From an uncultured Pelagibacteraceae bacterium (GTDB taxonomy: Bacteria; Pseudomonadota; Alphaproteobacteria; Pelagibacterales; Pelagibacteraceae): DNA of 52,321 nt. Shown in pieces: positions 41,140-45,647 of this stretch. The stretch lies in NCBI GenBank assembly GCA_902524955.1, contig CABZEY010000007.1, forward strand, positions 1 to 52,321, written 5' to 3'. The position numbers and the translations under genes are program-made. Under the pieces are notes generated by a model. That model was not told the origin of the DNA. It saw only the letters and a program-made list of their open reading frames with translations, and made no database searches. Position 1 is the first letter of the stretch. The number at the start of each line of letters is the position of its first letter.

Positions 41140-41796
41140 ATGCAATATAATAAAAATATCTTTGAATTTTATCAATCATCAGGGATTTATGACAGGATTA
41201 TTTTTAGAAATAAAAATAATAACAATCACCTTACGATTGAAAAACTCATTGAAAAAACATTATCTATCAAAAGTAGATATAATAAACAAAGCGATCAGTT
41301 AGTTTTTTCAGATGGAAATAGCAAGTCAAAAATTATGATTATCGGAGATGCCCCTGGCATCAGTGATGAAATAAACAATAAGCCCTTTTCAGGTGACGTT
41401 GGATTATTATTAAATAAAATGCTGAAAGCAATTAAACTTGATAGAACAAAAGTATATTTAACTAATGTAATCAATTTTAGATTACCAGATAATAAAAAGT
41501 TAAGTGATTATGACATAAAAATATTCAAACCTATAATTTATGAGCACATTGAAATTATAAATCCCAAGTTAATTATGTTATTTGGCGCATCTGCTTTAAA
41601 AACATTTTTTAACAATGAAGAATCTATCTCTAAAGCTAGGGGTAAATGGCTAGATCTAAAGATAAAAAATAATACTTATAGTTGTATGCCAAGTTTTCAT
41701 CCAAATTTTTTAATAAGTCAGCCATCGCAAAAGATAAATTCGTGGCAAGATCTTAAGGAATTTAAAAATCGAATTGATAGAGATAAAATATGTTAA
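41140..41796 (+). CDS. Uracil-DNA glycosylase, family-4-like, without Fe-S cysteines
   Basis: Removes uracil from DNA. The 218 residues show motif 1 GDAPG (69-73, D in place of the usual E), KPFSGDVG, YLTNVINFRLP and the C-terminal SFHPNFL (H187). Family 4 enzymes bind a 4Fe-4S cluster through four cysteines. Here the usual places (around residues 41-45 and 127-145) hold no cysteine, and the protein has only C182 and C218. The start is 5 bases from the divergent TPR-gene start, and the end overlaps rnhB by 7 bases. The superfamily is firm; the exact subfamily is open. Confidence 0.82.
   Translation: MQYNKNIFEFYQSSGIYDRIIFRNKNNNNHLTIEKLIEKTLSIKSRYNKQSDQLVFSDGNSKSKIMIIGDAPGISDEINNKPFSGDVGLLLNKMLKAIKLDRTKVYLTNVINFRLPDNKKLSDYDIKIFKPIIYEHIEIINPKLIMLFGASALKTFFNNEESISKARGKWLDLKIKNNTYSCMPSFHPNFLISQPSQKINSWQDLKEFKNRIDRDKIC
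41147..41175 (-). promoter_or_regulatory. Predicted promoter of the TPR gene, inside udg coding DNA
   Basis: Minus strand: -35 TTGATA (41175-41170), a 17-base spacer and a -10 TATTAT (41152-41147). The start point would be about 6 bases before the TPR-gene ATG at 41134. The whole promoter lies within the first 12 codons of the divergent udg gene. Confidence 0.5.
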
Positions 41797-42389
41797 GTCT
41801 AGAAAATGAAAAAATTATTTCTAAATTTATAATAGGTATTGACGAAGTTGGCCGAGGGCCTTTGGCAGGACCGGTGGTATCGGCAGCCGTTCGTTTATCG
41901 AAAAATTTTAAAACTGATGATCTAAATGACTCAAAAAAAATATCCAAGTCTAAAAGGCAAGAAATTTATAATTTAATTATAGAAACATGTGACTATCAGA
42001 TTGGAATTGCAAACGTAGTAGAGATAGACAAATATAATATTCTGCAAGCTACTTTTCTATCAATGAATAGAGCTATAAAAAAATTTCGTTTACCATCTAA
42101 TTATAAGATACTTGTTGATGGTCCATGGTCATTCGATAAAAAAAATAAAAATATTATACCAAAAATTAAGGGAGATTCTATTTACCCATCTATTGCAGCA
42201 GCATCAATCGTTGCAAAAGTATATAGGGATAATTTAATGCTTAATTTATCTAAAAAATATTCGAATTATTTTTGGGAAAAAAATTCTGGATATGGAACCA
42301 AAAAACACATTGAAGCCATTAAAAATTATGGTGTCACAGAACATCATAGAAAAACATTTGCCCCGATACACAAAATATTGAGTCTATAA
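41790..42389 (+). CDS. rnhB: Ribonuclease HII
   Basis: Cuts RNA in RNA-DNA hybrids and starts removal of misincorporated ribonucleotides. Its 199 residues show IIGIDEVGRGPLAGPVVSAAV with the catalytic DE pair, LVDGPW carrying the third acidic residue, and the GDSIYPSIAAASIVAKVYRD region with the final aspartate. It overlaps udg by 7 bases. The 79 bases after it hold the ccrM promoter. Confidence 0.95.
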   Translation: MLSLENEKIISKFIIGIDEVGRGPLAGPVVSAAVRLSKNFKTDDLNDSKKISKSKRQEIYNLIIETCDYQIGIANVVEIDKYNILQATFLSMNRAIKKFRLPSNYKILVDGPWSFDKKNKNIIPKIKGDSIYPSIAAASIVAKVYRDNLMLNLSKKYSNYFWEKNSGYGTKKHIEAIKNYGVTEHHRKTFAPIHKILSL

Positions 42390-42468: not shown

Positions 42469-43530
42469 ATGACTTTTGCAAAATTATACAATAGTGACTG
42501 CTTGGCTAGATTAAAAAAAATTGAAACGGAAAGTATAGATTTAATCTTTGCTGACCCGCCATATAACCTGCAGTTAAAAAATATACTTAGGAGACCGGAC
42601 ACTTCAAAAGTTTCTGCGGTCAATGATTATTGGGATAAATTTAATTCATTTGAAGATTATGATAAATTTTCAAATGATTGGATAAGAGAATGTAATAGAA
42701 TTTTGAAAAAAAATGGTTCCATGTGGGTGATTGGAAGTTATCATAATATTTTTCGAGTTGGAAAGATTATACAAGATAATAATTTTTGGATTTTAAACGA
42801 TGTAATATGGAATAAAAAAAATCCTATGCCAAATTTTAAAGGGACACGGCTTACTAATGCGCATGAAACTTTAATATGGGCAGCTAAATCTGATAAATCA
42901 AAATATACATTTAATTATCAATCCATGAAAACATTTAATGATGATAAACAACTTAGATCAGACTGGGATATAGCTATCTGTAATGGCTCCGAGAGAATGA
43001 TTTCCAACAATAAAAAAATTCACTCCACTCAAAAACCTGAGGCATTACTTTATCGAGTAATTTTATGTTCTAGTAATAAAAATGATCTTATTCTTGATCC
43101 ATTTATGGGAACTGGAACAACGGGTGCTGTTGCAAAAAAATTGGGTAGAAATTTTATTGGTATTGAAAAGGATAAGAAATATTTCAAAGTTTCAGAACAG
43201 CGAATTAAAAAAGCAAATGAAATAGACACTAATTTTAATATTCAAATGATTGATAAAAAAAAGGAAAAAAGAATACCCTTTGGATATTTGGTTGAATCTG
43301 GCTTGGTTGAACCTGGATTAAATTTGTTTGATTATAAAAAAAAATATAAAGCTAAGGTCATGGCAGATGGGTCGATTTATTGTAACAAAATACAAGGGTC
43401 AATTCATAAGGTTGGTGCTGAAATTCAAGGTATGCCAAGTTGCAATGGTTGGTCTTATTGGCATTTTAATATTGAGGGAAAATTAGAACCTATTGATTTT
43501 TTAAGGAAGAAAATAAGAAAGTCTTTATAA
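42469..43530 (+). CDS. ccrM: CcrM-type adenine-N6 DNA methyltransferase (GANTC)
   Basis: Cell-cycle-type orphan methylase. The 353 residues follow Caulobacter CcrM along their whole length: catalytic DPPYNLQL (29-36), IGSYHNIFRVG, MPNFKGTR, AHETLIWA, STQKPEALLYRVI and SAM-binding DPFMGTGTTG (210-219). The C-terminal DNA-recognition domain unique to CcrM ends in NGWSYWHF. No restriction partner is next to it. Methylation of GANTC is inferred from this similarity. It is set apart from rnhB by its own promoter and overlaps the convergent FAD monooxygenase by 6 bases. Confidence 0.94.
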   Translation: MTFAKLYNSDCLARLKKIETESIDLIFADPPYNLQLKNILRRPDTSKVSAVNDYWDKFNSFEDYDKFSNDWIRECNRILKKNGSMWVIGSYHNIFRVGKIIQDNNFWILNDVIWNKKNPMPNFKGTRLTNAHETLIWAAKSDKSKYTFNYQSMKTFNDDKQLRSDWDIAICNGSERMISNNKKIHSTQKPEALLYRVILCSSNKNDLILDPFMGTGTTGAVAKKLGRNFIGIEKDKKYFKVSEQRIKKANEIDTNFNIQMIDKKKEKRIPFGYLVESGLVEPGLNLFDYKKKYKAKVMADGSIYCNKIQGSIHKVGAEIQGMPSCNGWSYWHFNIEGKLEPIDFLRKKIRKSL

Positions 43531-44640
43531 ATTTTTTTTATAATTATAATCAAATATATAACTATTTATTAACTTTACCAAAAATTTTGAAGAGCAGATT
43601 ATTTTAATTAATAGATTTCTAATTTTTCTTAATATAAAGAAATCAAAATGAAAAATAATTATATTATTCTCTGATTTTCTTTTAATTTTTTTTATTCTAT
43701 TTTTTCTAATTTTAAAGAGTTTTCTAGGTGAAATATCATTTGTTGCTATAAGATTGAACAGCTCATATGAATCTTCAATAGCTTGCGCTGCACCTTGAGC
43801 CCTAGACGGTATAAAACCATGGGCACTGTCACCAATAAAGAAAGTATCTTTGTCACCATAAAAAACTTTATTTAATTTATATATTGGCCACATTTTTATG
43901 TTTAAATCTTCAAATAATATATTGTTTAAATTAGGGAAATAAAATTTTTTATTTTCTTTAAGATTTTTAATTTCATAGTCATAATTTAAAATATCTTTAT
44001 TACACGGAATTTTTTTTACTAACGTAAATGAATGATTTCTATTTTGATCGATGGGATATTTGACAAAATGAAAATTTTTTCCCATCCATAAATCAATTTT
44101 ATTACTTTGTCTTTCATCTAAAAATACTCCTCTAAATGCGGAGTAACCTGAATATACTGGCTCTATTTTTTTATTCCTTAAATTTGAAAAAATTCCATCG
44201 GCAATTACTAAAATATCAAAGTCTTGTTTATTTTTATCTTTAAACAAAATTGACTTTTCATGAATTTTTACAACCTCTTTATCAATAATCTGATCTTTCA
44301 AAGAAAATTTATCTATTAGGAAATTTATTAAATCACTTCTATTTAATGCAATATAAGACTGATCATTCAAATTAAAGTTCATTGTAGCAATATTTGAATT
44401 AGAATGATAATCGTGAAAAGATACACCTGATATTTTACATACCTTTTTTTGATCAAATGTGTTGAAATCTAATTTACTAAGTATTCTAAAAGCATTAGGA
44501 GAAATTTGTATTCCATTTATGTTTTTAAATTTTAAATTATCTTTTTCAAAAATAGATATATCGTAATTTGTATTTTTTTTTAGCAGACAAGCCAGAGTTA
44601 AACCCGAAATTCCTGCTCCAACAATTCCTATTTTTTTCAC
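43525..44640 (-). CDS. FAD-dependent aromatic-ring monooxygenase, salicylate-hydroxylase-like
   Basis: 371-residue flavoprotein hydroxylase. FAD-binding GAGISGLTLACLL is at residues 8-20, the DG motif is in DILVIADGIFS, and the GD motif is in FIGDSAHGFIPSRAQGAAQ. The AQGAAQAIED form is typical of the salicylate/3-hydroxybenzoate hydroxylase branch rather than UbiH, but a role in ubiquinone hydroxylation cannot be excluded. The start is GTG at 44640, sharing one base with the mutY stop (TAGTG). The C-terminus is lysine-rich and divergent. The true substrate is unknown. Confidence 0.82.
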   Translation of the reverse strand: MKKIGIVGAGISGLTLACLLKKNTNYDISIFEKDNLKFKNINGIQISPNAFRILSKLDFNTFDQKKVCKISGVSFHDYHSNSNIATMNFNLNDQSYIALNRSDLINFLIDKFSLKDQIIDKEVVKIHEKSILFKDKNKQDFDILVIADGIFSNLRNKKIEPVYSGYSAFRGVFLDERQSNKIDLWMGKNFHFVKYPIDQNRNHSFTLVKKIPCNKDILNYDYEIKNLKENKKFYFPNLNNILFEDLNIKMWPIYKLNKVFYGDKDTFFIGDSAHGFIPSRAQGAAQAIEDSYELFNLIATNDISPRKLFKIRKNRIKKIKRKSENNIIIFHFDFFILRKIRNLLIKIICSSKFLVKLINSYIFDYNYKKNL

Positions 44641-45647
44641 TAAATTCCCTCTGCTCTTTTTAGAATTTTATCTAAAAAACTCGATTTAAAATTTTTTTGT
44701 ATTTGTTTATTTGTATAAAAAATATAATTATCATTTATTTTATTTAAATTTTTAATTTTAATACAATTAATATCTGCGATTAAATTAGAAATAGAAATTT
44801 TTACTTTTTTTAGTAACAAATATTTAATTTTCTGTTTAAAAAATTTATTCAAATCAGCCTGTAAATCATTAGAGTAACTTTCAAATATTGGTACATTTAA
44901 AAAACCTTTGAGCGGACCAAAATTATTTTTTCTTGTCAACAAAATTTTTTTATTCTTAATATATATACAGGCATTAAGTTTTTTTATTTTTTTCTTGGAC
45001 CCCTTCAATAAAACAATTTTTTTATTTCCTTTAAATTTACATAAACTTTTTAAACAACAATTAATGCAATCCGGATTTTTTGGCTTGCAGACCAAGGCAC
45101 CCAGTTCCATTATTCCCTGCATCAATGAACTTGAATTTTTTTTTACTTTAAGTTTTTCTACATATTGAGGAATCTTTTTTTTGTCTTTAAGACAAAATAA
45201 TCTTGATATAACTCTTACTACGTTTCCATCAATACCAATTTCACTTTTATCAAACGCAATAGACAACAGTGCTTTGGCTGTATAATCTCCAATCCCTGGT
45301 AATTTAATCAATTCAGAATAACTCTGAGGTAATTTTGAATTATATTTGTTTGATATTATTTTAGATGTTTCTAACAAGTACTTCGCTCTTCTATAATATC
45401 CTAACCCTTGCCATAATTTATTTACTCTGGACTGTGACACATTCGATAGCTTTTCGATAGAATCAATATTCTTGTAGAAGTTGTTAAAATAAGGAATTGC
45501 TGTTTTTACTTGAGTTTGTTGAAGCATAAATTCACTTAAAAAAACTTTATAATGCCTGTCCTTTTGAGACTTATATTTTCTCCACGGTAATTTCCTTTGA
45601 TGTTTTTTATACCAAGCTAAAATTTTTTTTGATATTGATAAGTACAT
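44640..45647 (-). CDS. mutY: A/G-specific adenine glycosylase MutY
   Basis: Removes adenine mispaired with 8-oxoguanine. Its 335 residues show catalytic E39 (LSEFMLQQTQV), the helix-hairpin-helix LPGIGDYTAKALLSIAF and D138 (GIDGNVVRV). The 4Fe-4S loop is intact with C185-x6-C192-x2-C195-x5-C201. A Nudix-like C-terminal domain for 8-oxoG recognition follows and is diverged. Its ATG lies 6 bases from the divergent dciA ATG, so both promoters must sit in coding DNA. Confidence 0.95.
   Translation of the reverse strand: MYLSISKKILAWYKKHQRKLPWRKYKSQKDRHYKVFLSEFMLQQTQVKTAIPYFNNFYKNIDSIEKLSNVSQSRVNKLWQGLGYYRRAKYLLETSKIISNKYNSKLPQSYSELIKLPGIGDYTAKALLSIAFDKSEIGIDGNVVRVISRLFCLKDKKKIPQYVEKLKVKKNSSSLMQGIMELGALVCKPKNPDCINCCLKSLCKFKGNKKIVLLKGSKKKIKKLNACIYIKNKKILLTRKNNFGPLKGFLNVPIFESYSNDLQADLNKFFKQKIKYLLLKKVKISISNLIADINCIKIKNLNKINDNYIFYTNKQIQKNFKSSFLDKILKRAEGI

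Follow-up and report, generated by a model that had tools for sequence, protein, structure and literature searches.

A predicted cluster-free uracil-DNA glycosylase of family-4 descent in a SAR11-order bacterium, and the stepwise loss of its iron-sulfur ligands in Alphaproteobacteria

The gene at positions 41140-41796 (plus strand) of the window, that is, of the whole analyzed stretch of 52,321 nucleotides, is best explained as an alphaproteobacterial orthologue of family-4 uracil-DNA glycosylases (UDG4), inherited by a HIMB114-type bacterium of the SAR11 order and predicted to act as a uracil-DNA glycosylase without an iron-sulfur cluster (probability about 0.8). The cysteine patterns of its relatives, considered together with a tree, show that the ligands of the cluster were lost stepwise: Phe and Trp first took the places of cysteines 1 and 3 in an ancestral alphaproteobacterium, and cysteines 2 and 4 disappeared later, mostly jointly and repeatedly.

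Family assignment and the former cluster site

The reading frame starts with ATG, is uninterrupted by stops and encodes 218 amino acids, with the G+C content of 26% (29% in the whole window); the source genome is 0.97 Mb long and 85% complete. The motifs GDAPG (residues 69-73), KPFSGDVG (81-88) and SFHPNFL (185-191), listed in the initial annotation, are all present in this intact frame. The protein matches PF03167 with 92.6 bits (cut-off 24.3) and TIGR00758 UDG_fam4 with 135.2 bits, above the curated cut-off of 125.3, and its best solved relatives by sequence are the family-4 enzymes 1ui0, 4zbx and 1vk2 (from Thermus, Sulfolobus and Thermotoga, respectively), which bears out the family placement made initially. 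The named homologues at 60% identity to the window protein are those of HIMB114 and two Pelagibacteraceae MAGs, and the UDG4 gene was found in all 28 near-complete genomes of the sampled set.

The AlphaFold2 model of the window protein has the mean pLDDT of 85.7, with low confidence in residues 1-28. Its best structural matches are crystal structures of family-4 enzymes, 1ui1 from Thermus giving Z of 26.2 and rmsd of 1.9 over 180 residues (range 32-216), and this fit covers the two halves of what used to be the cluster site; thus, the family-4 fold is predicted to form without the cluster. Weaker fold matches are UdgX (Z about 23), family 5 (2d3y, 18.4) and BdiUng (5gn2, 14.8).

The fold (Z about 26) and the TIGR00758 profile are common to the window protein and the family-4 UDGa enzymes (Thermus thermophilus 1ui0/1ui1, Thermotoga TM0511, Sulfolobus tokodaii), as are PG of motif A and the equivalents of Thermus F54, N80, N89 and H155. 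The differences are the absence of cluster cysteines, Asp residues in place of E41 and E47, and a disordered N-terminal extension. Motif A of family 4 is GE(A/G)PG, and here it is GDAPG; the four 4Fe-4S cysteines of the family are I43, R46, F113 and F129 here; motif B, of the HPAxxL type with the catalytic His, is HPNFL, Asn replacing the usual Ala. Judging from these comparisons, the window protein is a family-4 member by descent, best named a cluster-free, family-4-derived UDG; it is treated as non-canonical because both the cluster cysteines and the motif-A Glu are missing.

Three other groups of the superfamily were considered and rejected. UdgX from M. smegmatis has the superfamily fold in common with the window protein, but the latter has no KRRIH loop, its motif A is not GEQPG, and its TIGR03914 score of 83.4 bits is below the cut-off of 189.95. 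Family 5 is characterized by GLAPA, HPSPLN and four Cys, unlike GDAPG and HPNFL without cluster cysteines here. BdiUng, another alphaproteobacterial UDG (from Bradyrhizobium), resembles family 4 in fold and has GQDPA as motif A; the window protein has GDAPG, only 11% identity to it, and Z of only 14.8.

The cluster positions were identified in an alignment of 192 sequences (8 from the window's genus, 29 from the rest of its family, 18 from the sister family, 95 from other Alphaproteobacteria, 38 from other Pseudomonadota, and 4 named loci). The four cluster columns contain Cys in 95-100% of the non-alphaproteobacterial Pseudomonadota rows, and correspond in the window protein to I43 (41266-41268), R46 (41275-41277), F113 (41476-41478; Trp in most Alphaproteobacteria) and F129 (41524-41526), all on the plus strand. 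In a second alignment a gap stands in place of R46, and there is no Cys under either. Hence, the iron-sulfur cysteines are indeed missing, as had been noted before; of the residues then named at these positions, Ser and Phe among others, Phe is confirmed (F113 and F129), and Ser occupies none of the four. The only two cysteines of the protein are, again as noted before, C182 (41683-41685, plus strand), which is not a cluster position, and the final residue C218.

Stepwise loss of the ligand cysteines

All four cysteines (CCCC) are present in 36 of the 38 sequences from other Pseudomonadota. The set is also complete in the enzymes of a cyanobacterium, Thermus and Sulfolobus, and in the family-5 paralogue; of the viral relatives, 30 of 30 have cysteines 3 and 4. 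The most frequent pattern among the 95 other Alphaproteobacteria is.C.C (67 sequences; dots stand for other residues), followed by no cysteines (13), CC.C (7, most of them from a separate clade resembling UdgX),.C.. (5), ...C (2) and CCCC (1). Within the window's order, the sister family (f2) has.C.C in 18 of 18 sequences, the window's own family outside its genus has.C.. in 17 and no cluster cysteine in 12 of 29 copies, and no cluster cysteine is found in any of the eight members of the genus.

Among the 88 alphaproteobacterial orthologues from outside the order, 75 have Phe or Tyr at position 1 and 86 have Trp at position 3. Such constancy suggests that the cysteines were swapped for a defined aromatic pair, and did not simply decay. 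Cysteines 2 and 4 in the same set are both kept in 68 sequences, both lost in 13, and discordant in 5 and 2, in raw counts that ignore kinship; by these counts the co-variation is strong, while the pairs that are independent on the phylogeny are not numerous enough to reach significance.

The tree, built with the four cluster columns removed, contains one clade of 84 alphaproteobacterial rows (bootstrap 96, SH-aLRT 98), with the clade of the window's order (98/92) nested inside it. The fewest changes on this tree are 2, 13, 2 and 12 for columns 1 to 4, which places the loss of cysteines 1 and 3 in roughly a single event at the origin of the bootstrap-96 clade. By this reconstruction, half of the cluster site turned aromatic in the alphaproteobacterial ancestor before SAR11 arose. 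As the tree is unrooted, the direction of change rests on the distribution of the four-Cys members; the ancestors carried all ligands, given that four cysteines occur in other Pseudomonadota, in Thermus, in a cyanobacterium and in the family-5 paralogue. This agrees with the earlier description of the cysteines as lost, and argues against a UDG family that never had the cluster; still, the loss is not specific to the window protein, as had been assumed, two ligands being already gone at the base of the alphaproteobacterial clade. No earlier report of cluster loss in Alphaproteobacteria was found in the part of the literature covered, and prior notice may exist.

The gene order is consistent with this history. 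The UDG gene is overlapped at its 3' end by rnhB (RNase HII; 41790-42389, plus strand), followed by the gene of a CcrM-type adenine methyltransferase (42469-43530, plus strand). All 30 loci examined in the order, and three named loci besides, have the arrangement UDG-rnhB-ccrM, the span running from the sister family with two cysteines to the genus with none; therefore the copies are orthologous and the cysteine loss is vertical. On the other side, the UDG start (41140) is about 5 bases from the likely ATG (41134) of a divergently transcribed TPR gene, so that there is no intergenic space for a promoter. The two-Cys proteins of Azospirillum, Sinorhizobium, Methylobacterium and f2 are orthologues of the window protein by the tree, and those of f2 also by gene order; their positions 1 and 3 are already Phe/Trp. 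They differ from the window protein in keeping cysteines 2 and 4, and f2 also has the Glu/Glu active site.

It is about an even chance that an aromatic plug (Phe for cysteine 1 and a near-invariant Trp for cysteine 3) took the place of the cluster in a large alphaproteobacterial clade, with the leftover cysteines linked as a thiol pair, a disulfide or a small metal site, and subsequently given up by SAR11 and further lineages. In the main reading of the window protein, hydrophobic residues (Ile, Phe and Phe here, Phe/Trp across most of the class) probably occupy the cluster pocket and hold the loop that is anchored by the cluster in other members.

Active site and predicted function

Residues E41, G42, E47, F54, N80, N89 and H155 of the Thermus enzyme have been shown to matter (PMC5387724), and by alignment they correspond to D70, A71, D76, F83, N109, N118 and H187 of the window protein. 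In motif A (GDAPG, 41344-41358, plus strand), D70 replaces the family-4 Glu; N109 (41464-41466, plus strand; uracil recognition) and N118 (41491-41493, plus strand; water positioning) are invariant in alignment A1; motif B (HPNFL, 41698-41712, plus strand) contains H187, the equivalent of the leaving-group stabilizer H155 (PMC5387724). The uracil is likely to be flipped out and the glycosidic bond hydrolyzed as in the Thermus enzyme; in the window protein H187 would stabilize the leaving uracil, N118 would position the water, and N109 together with F83 would bind the base. F83, N109, N118 and H187 are retained in all eight genus members, and so is the motif-A Asp. The E41D substitution in the Thermus enzyme substantially reduces activity (PMC5387724), and, by analogy, the GDAPG motif may do so in the window protein; its efficiency is probably altered, because both active-site Glu are Asp. 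The absence of the cluster itself is plausible in an active enzyme, since, according to PMC5295032 (citing PMIDs 18562313 and 22646210), disruption of the cluster cysteines in family 4 removes only part of the activity.

The Asp residues at both E41 and E47 equivalents are shared by a clade of 11 rows comprising genera g1 and g12 (bootstrap 100). Residues 70 and 76 (41347-41349 and 41365-41367) change from Glu to Asp jointly, and mixed states are almost absent. The same D/D state is also seen in a few unrelated members outside Alphaproteobacteria.

The genome also encodes dUTPase and a family-5 paralogue, UdgB (G000:C1:46354-47031; L065:1351-2031), with motifs GLAPA and HPSPRN and four Cys. 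UdgB is patchily distributed: its carriers are the window's genus and a small number of genera related to it, and it was not found in f2.

One may suppose that the window protein is degenerating or non-catalytic, its UDG function fading as UdgB covers it. The Glu-to-Asp changes in g1 and g12 and the loss of the motif-B His in genus g4 would fit, and in family f1 D/D or the His loss affects the main copy only in UdgB-carrying genera (a raw distribution, kinship ignored), which may reflect a relaxed role under UdgB backup. Moreover, UDG4 is more divergent within the genus (57-69% identity) than UdgB (71-84%). Yet UDG4 in the HIMB114 group has dN/dS of about 0.02-0.1, on par with rnhB, showing at the sequence level that the gene is under purifying selection; the four catalytic residues are retained throughout the genus, no disrupted copies were found in the genome set (28 near-complete genomes), and the D/D state recurs in non-alphaproteobacterial members. 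A pseudogene is rejected by the dN/dS values and intact frames, and degeneration in the wider sense is unlikely. With the catalytic residues kept, low dN/dS and the fixed gene order, the window protein looks functional.

Two groups of relatives have altered catalytic residues. In genus g4 (L113, L115 and L116 from genomes G023, G031 and G010), the motif-B His is replaced by Ser or Asn, N109 by Tyr and N118 by Asp; these orthologues are retained despite the loss of catalytic residues, and all three genomes have UdgB. Genomes G012, G033 and G025 encode a second, degenerate UDG4 copy (L117, L118 and L119) with FDP for FHP in motif B, beside an intact first one.

Iron limitation and implications

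The initial annotation suggested that the loss could reflect adaptation to iron scarcity in the open ocean; on this iron-sparing reading, the cluster would have been shed to save the metal. The organism does belong to a marine, SAR11-order lineage, and all four cysteines are often gone in its family (12 of 29 copies outside the genus and 8 of 8 within it). However, the loss of two ligands predates the order, having started in an ancestor shared by most Alphaproteobacteria, among them bacteria of soil and plants, and is therefore no specialization for iron-poor ocean water. The F-C-W-C pattern is found in Azospirillum (from cow dung and a hot spring), Sinorhizobium (root nodule) and Methylobacterium; in marine Ruegeria the pattern is F-C-W-L. 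The sister family of the same order still has two cysteines.

Furthermore, other iron-sulfur enzymes in the same genomes keep their ligands. UdgB of the window's genome has all four cysteines, as do 17 of 17 full-length homologues in the order; MutY (44640-45647, minus strand) has the intact C-X6-C-X2-C-X5-C motif (CKPKNPDCINCCLKSLC), in agreement with the initial observation; the Rieske protein encoded in the window keeps its ligands. In the 30 Nth loci examined, four or more cysteines lie clustered, and the own-genome Nth apparently retains four. As these enzymes keep their cysteines, iron sparing is disfavored; low iron is rejected as the main cause, and we consider the explanation very unlikely.

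The Nth proteins have a peculiarity of their own: in most of the order (L272, G000:C12:4572-5138, and L278-L303) they have an unusual five-Cys ending C-X4-C-X4-C-X2-C-X2-C, the standard ending C-X6-C-X2-C-X5-C being found in three genomes (L275, L276 and L277). A regular expression for the standard motif did not match the own-genome Nth, where the five-Cys arrangement differs.

Finally, a cluster or other metal bound through non-Cys or inter-subunit ligands is hardly credible: the two cysteines that remain and co-vary in most Alphaproteobacteria would fit a paired thiol, a disulfide or a shared site, but Ile, Arg, Phe and Phe at the window positions are not usual cluster ligands, and C182 and C218 are distant in sequence from the cluster positions, the latter being terminal and the former being Phe in homologue L008.

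The role of the 4Fe-4S cluster in some DNA glycosylases is debated, structural clamp and redox signalling being the two options. A lineage with four, two and zero ligand cysteines in related bacteria makes this role testable on natural proteins instead of destabilized mutants, and the aromatic plug, if it is real, would make a single orthologous enzyme a naturally graded set of cluster-bearing to cluster-free forms. An automatic family-4 annotation in Alphaproteobacteria need not mean an iron-sulfur protein. The main interest beyond the window genome is that the aromatic replacement of half of the cluster site is older than SAR11.
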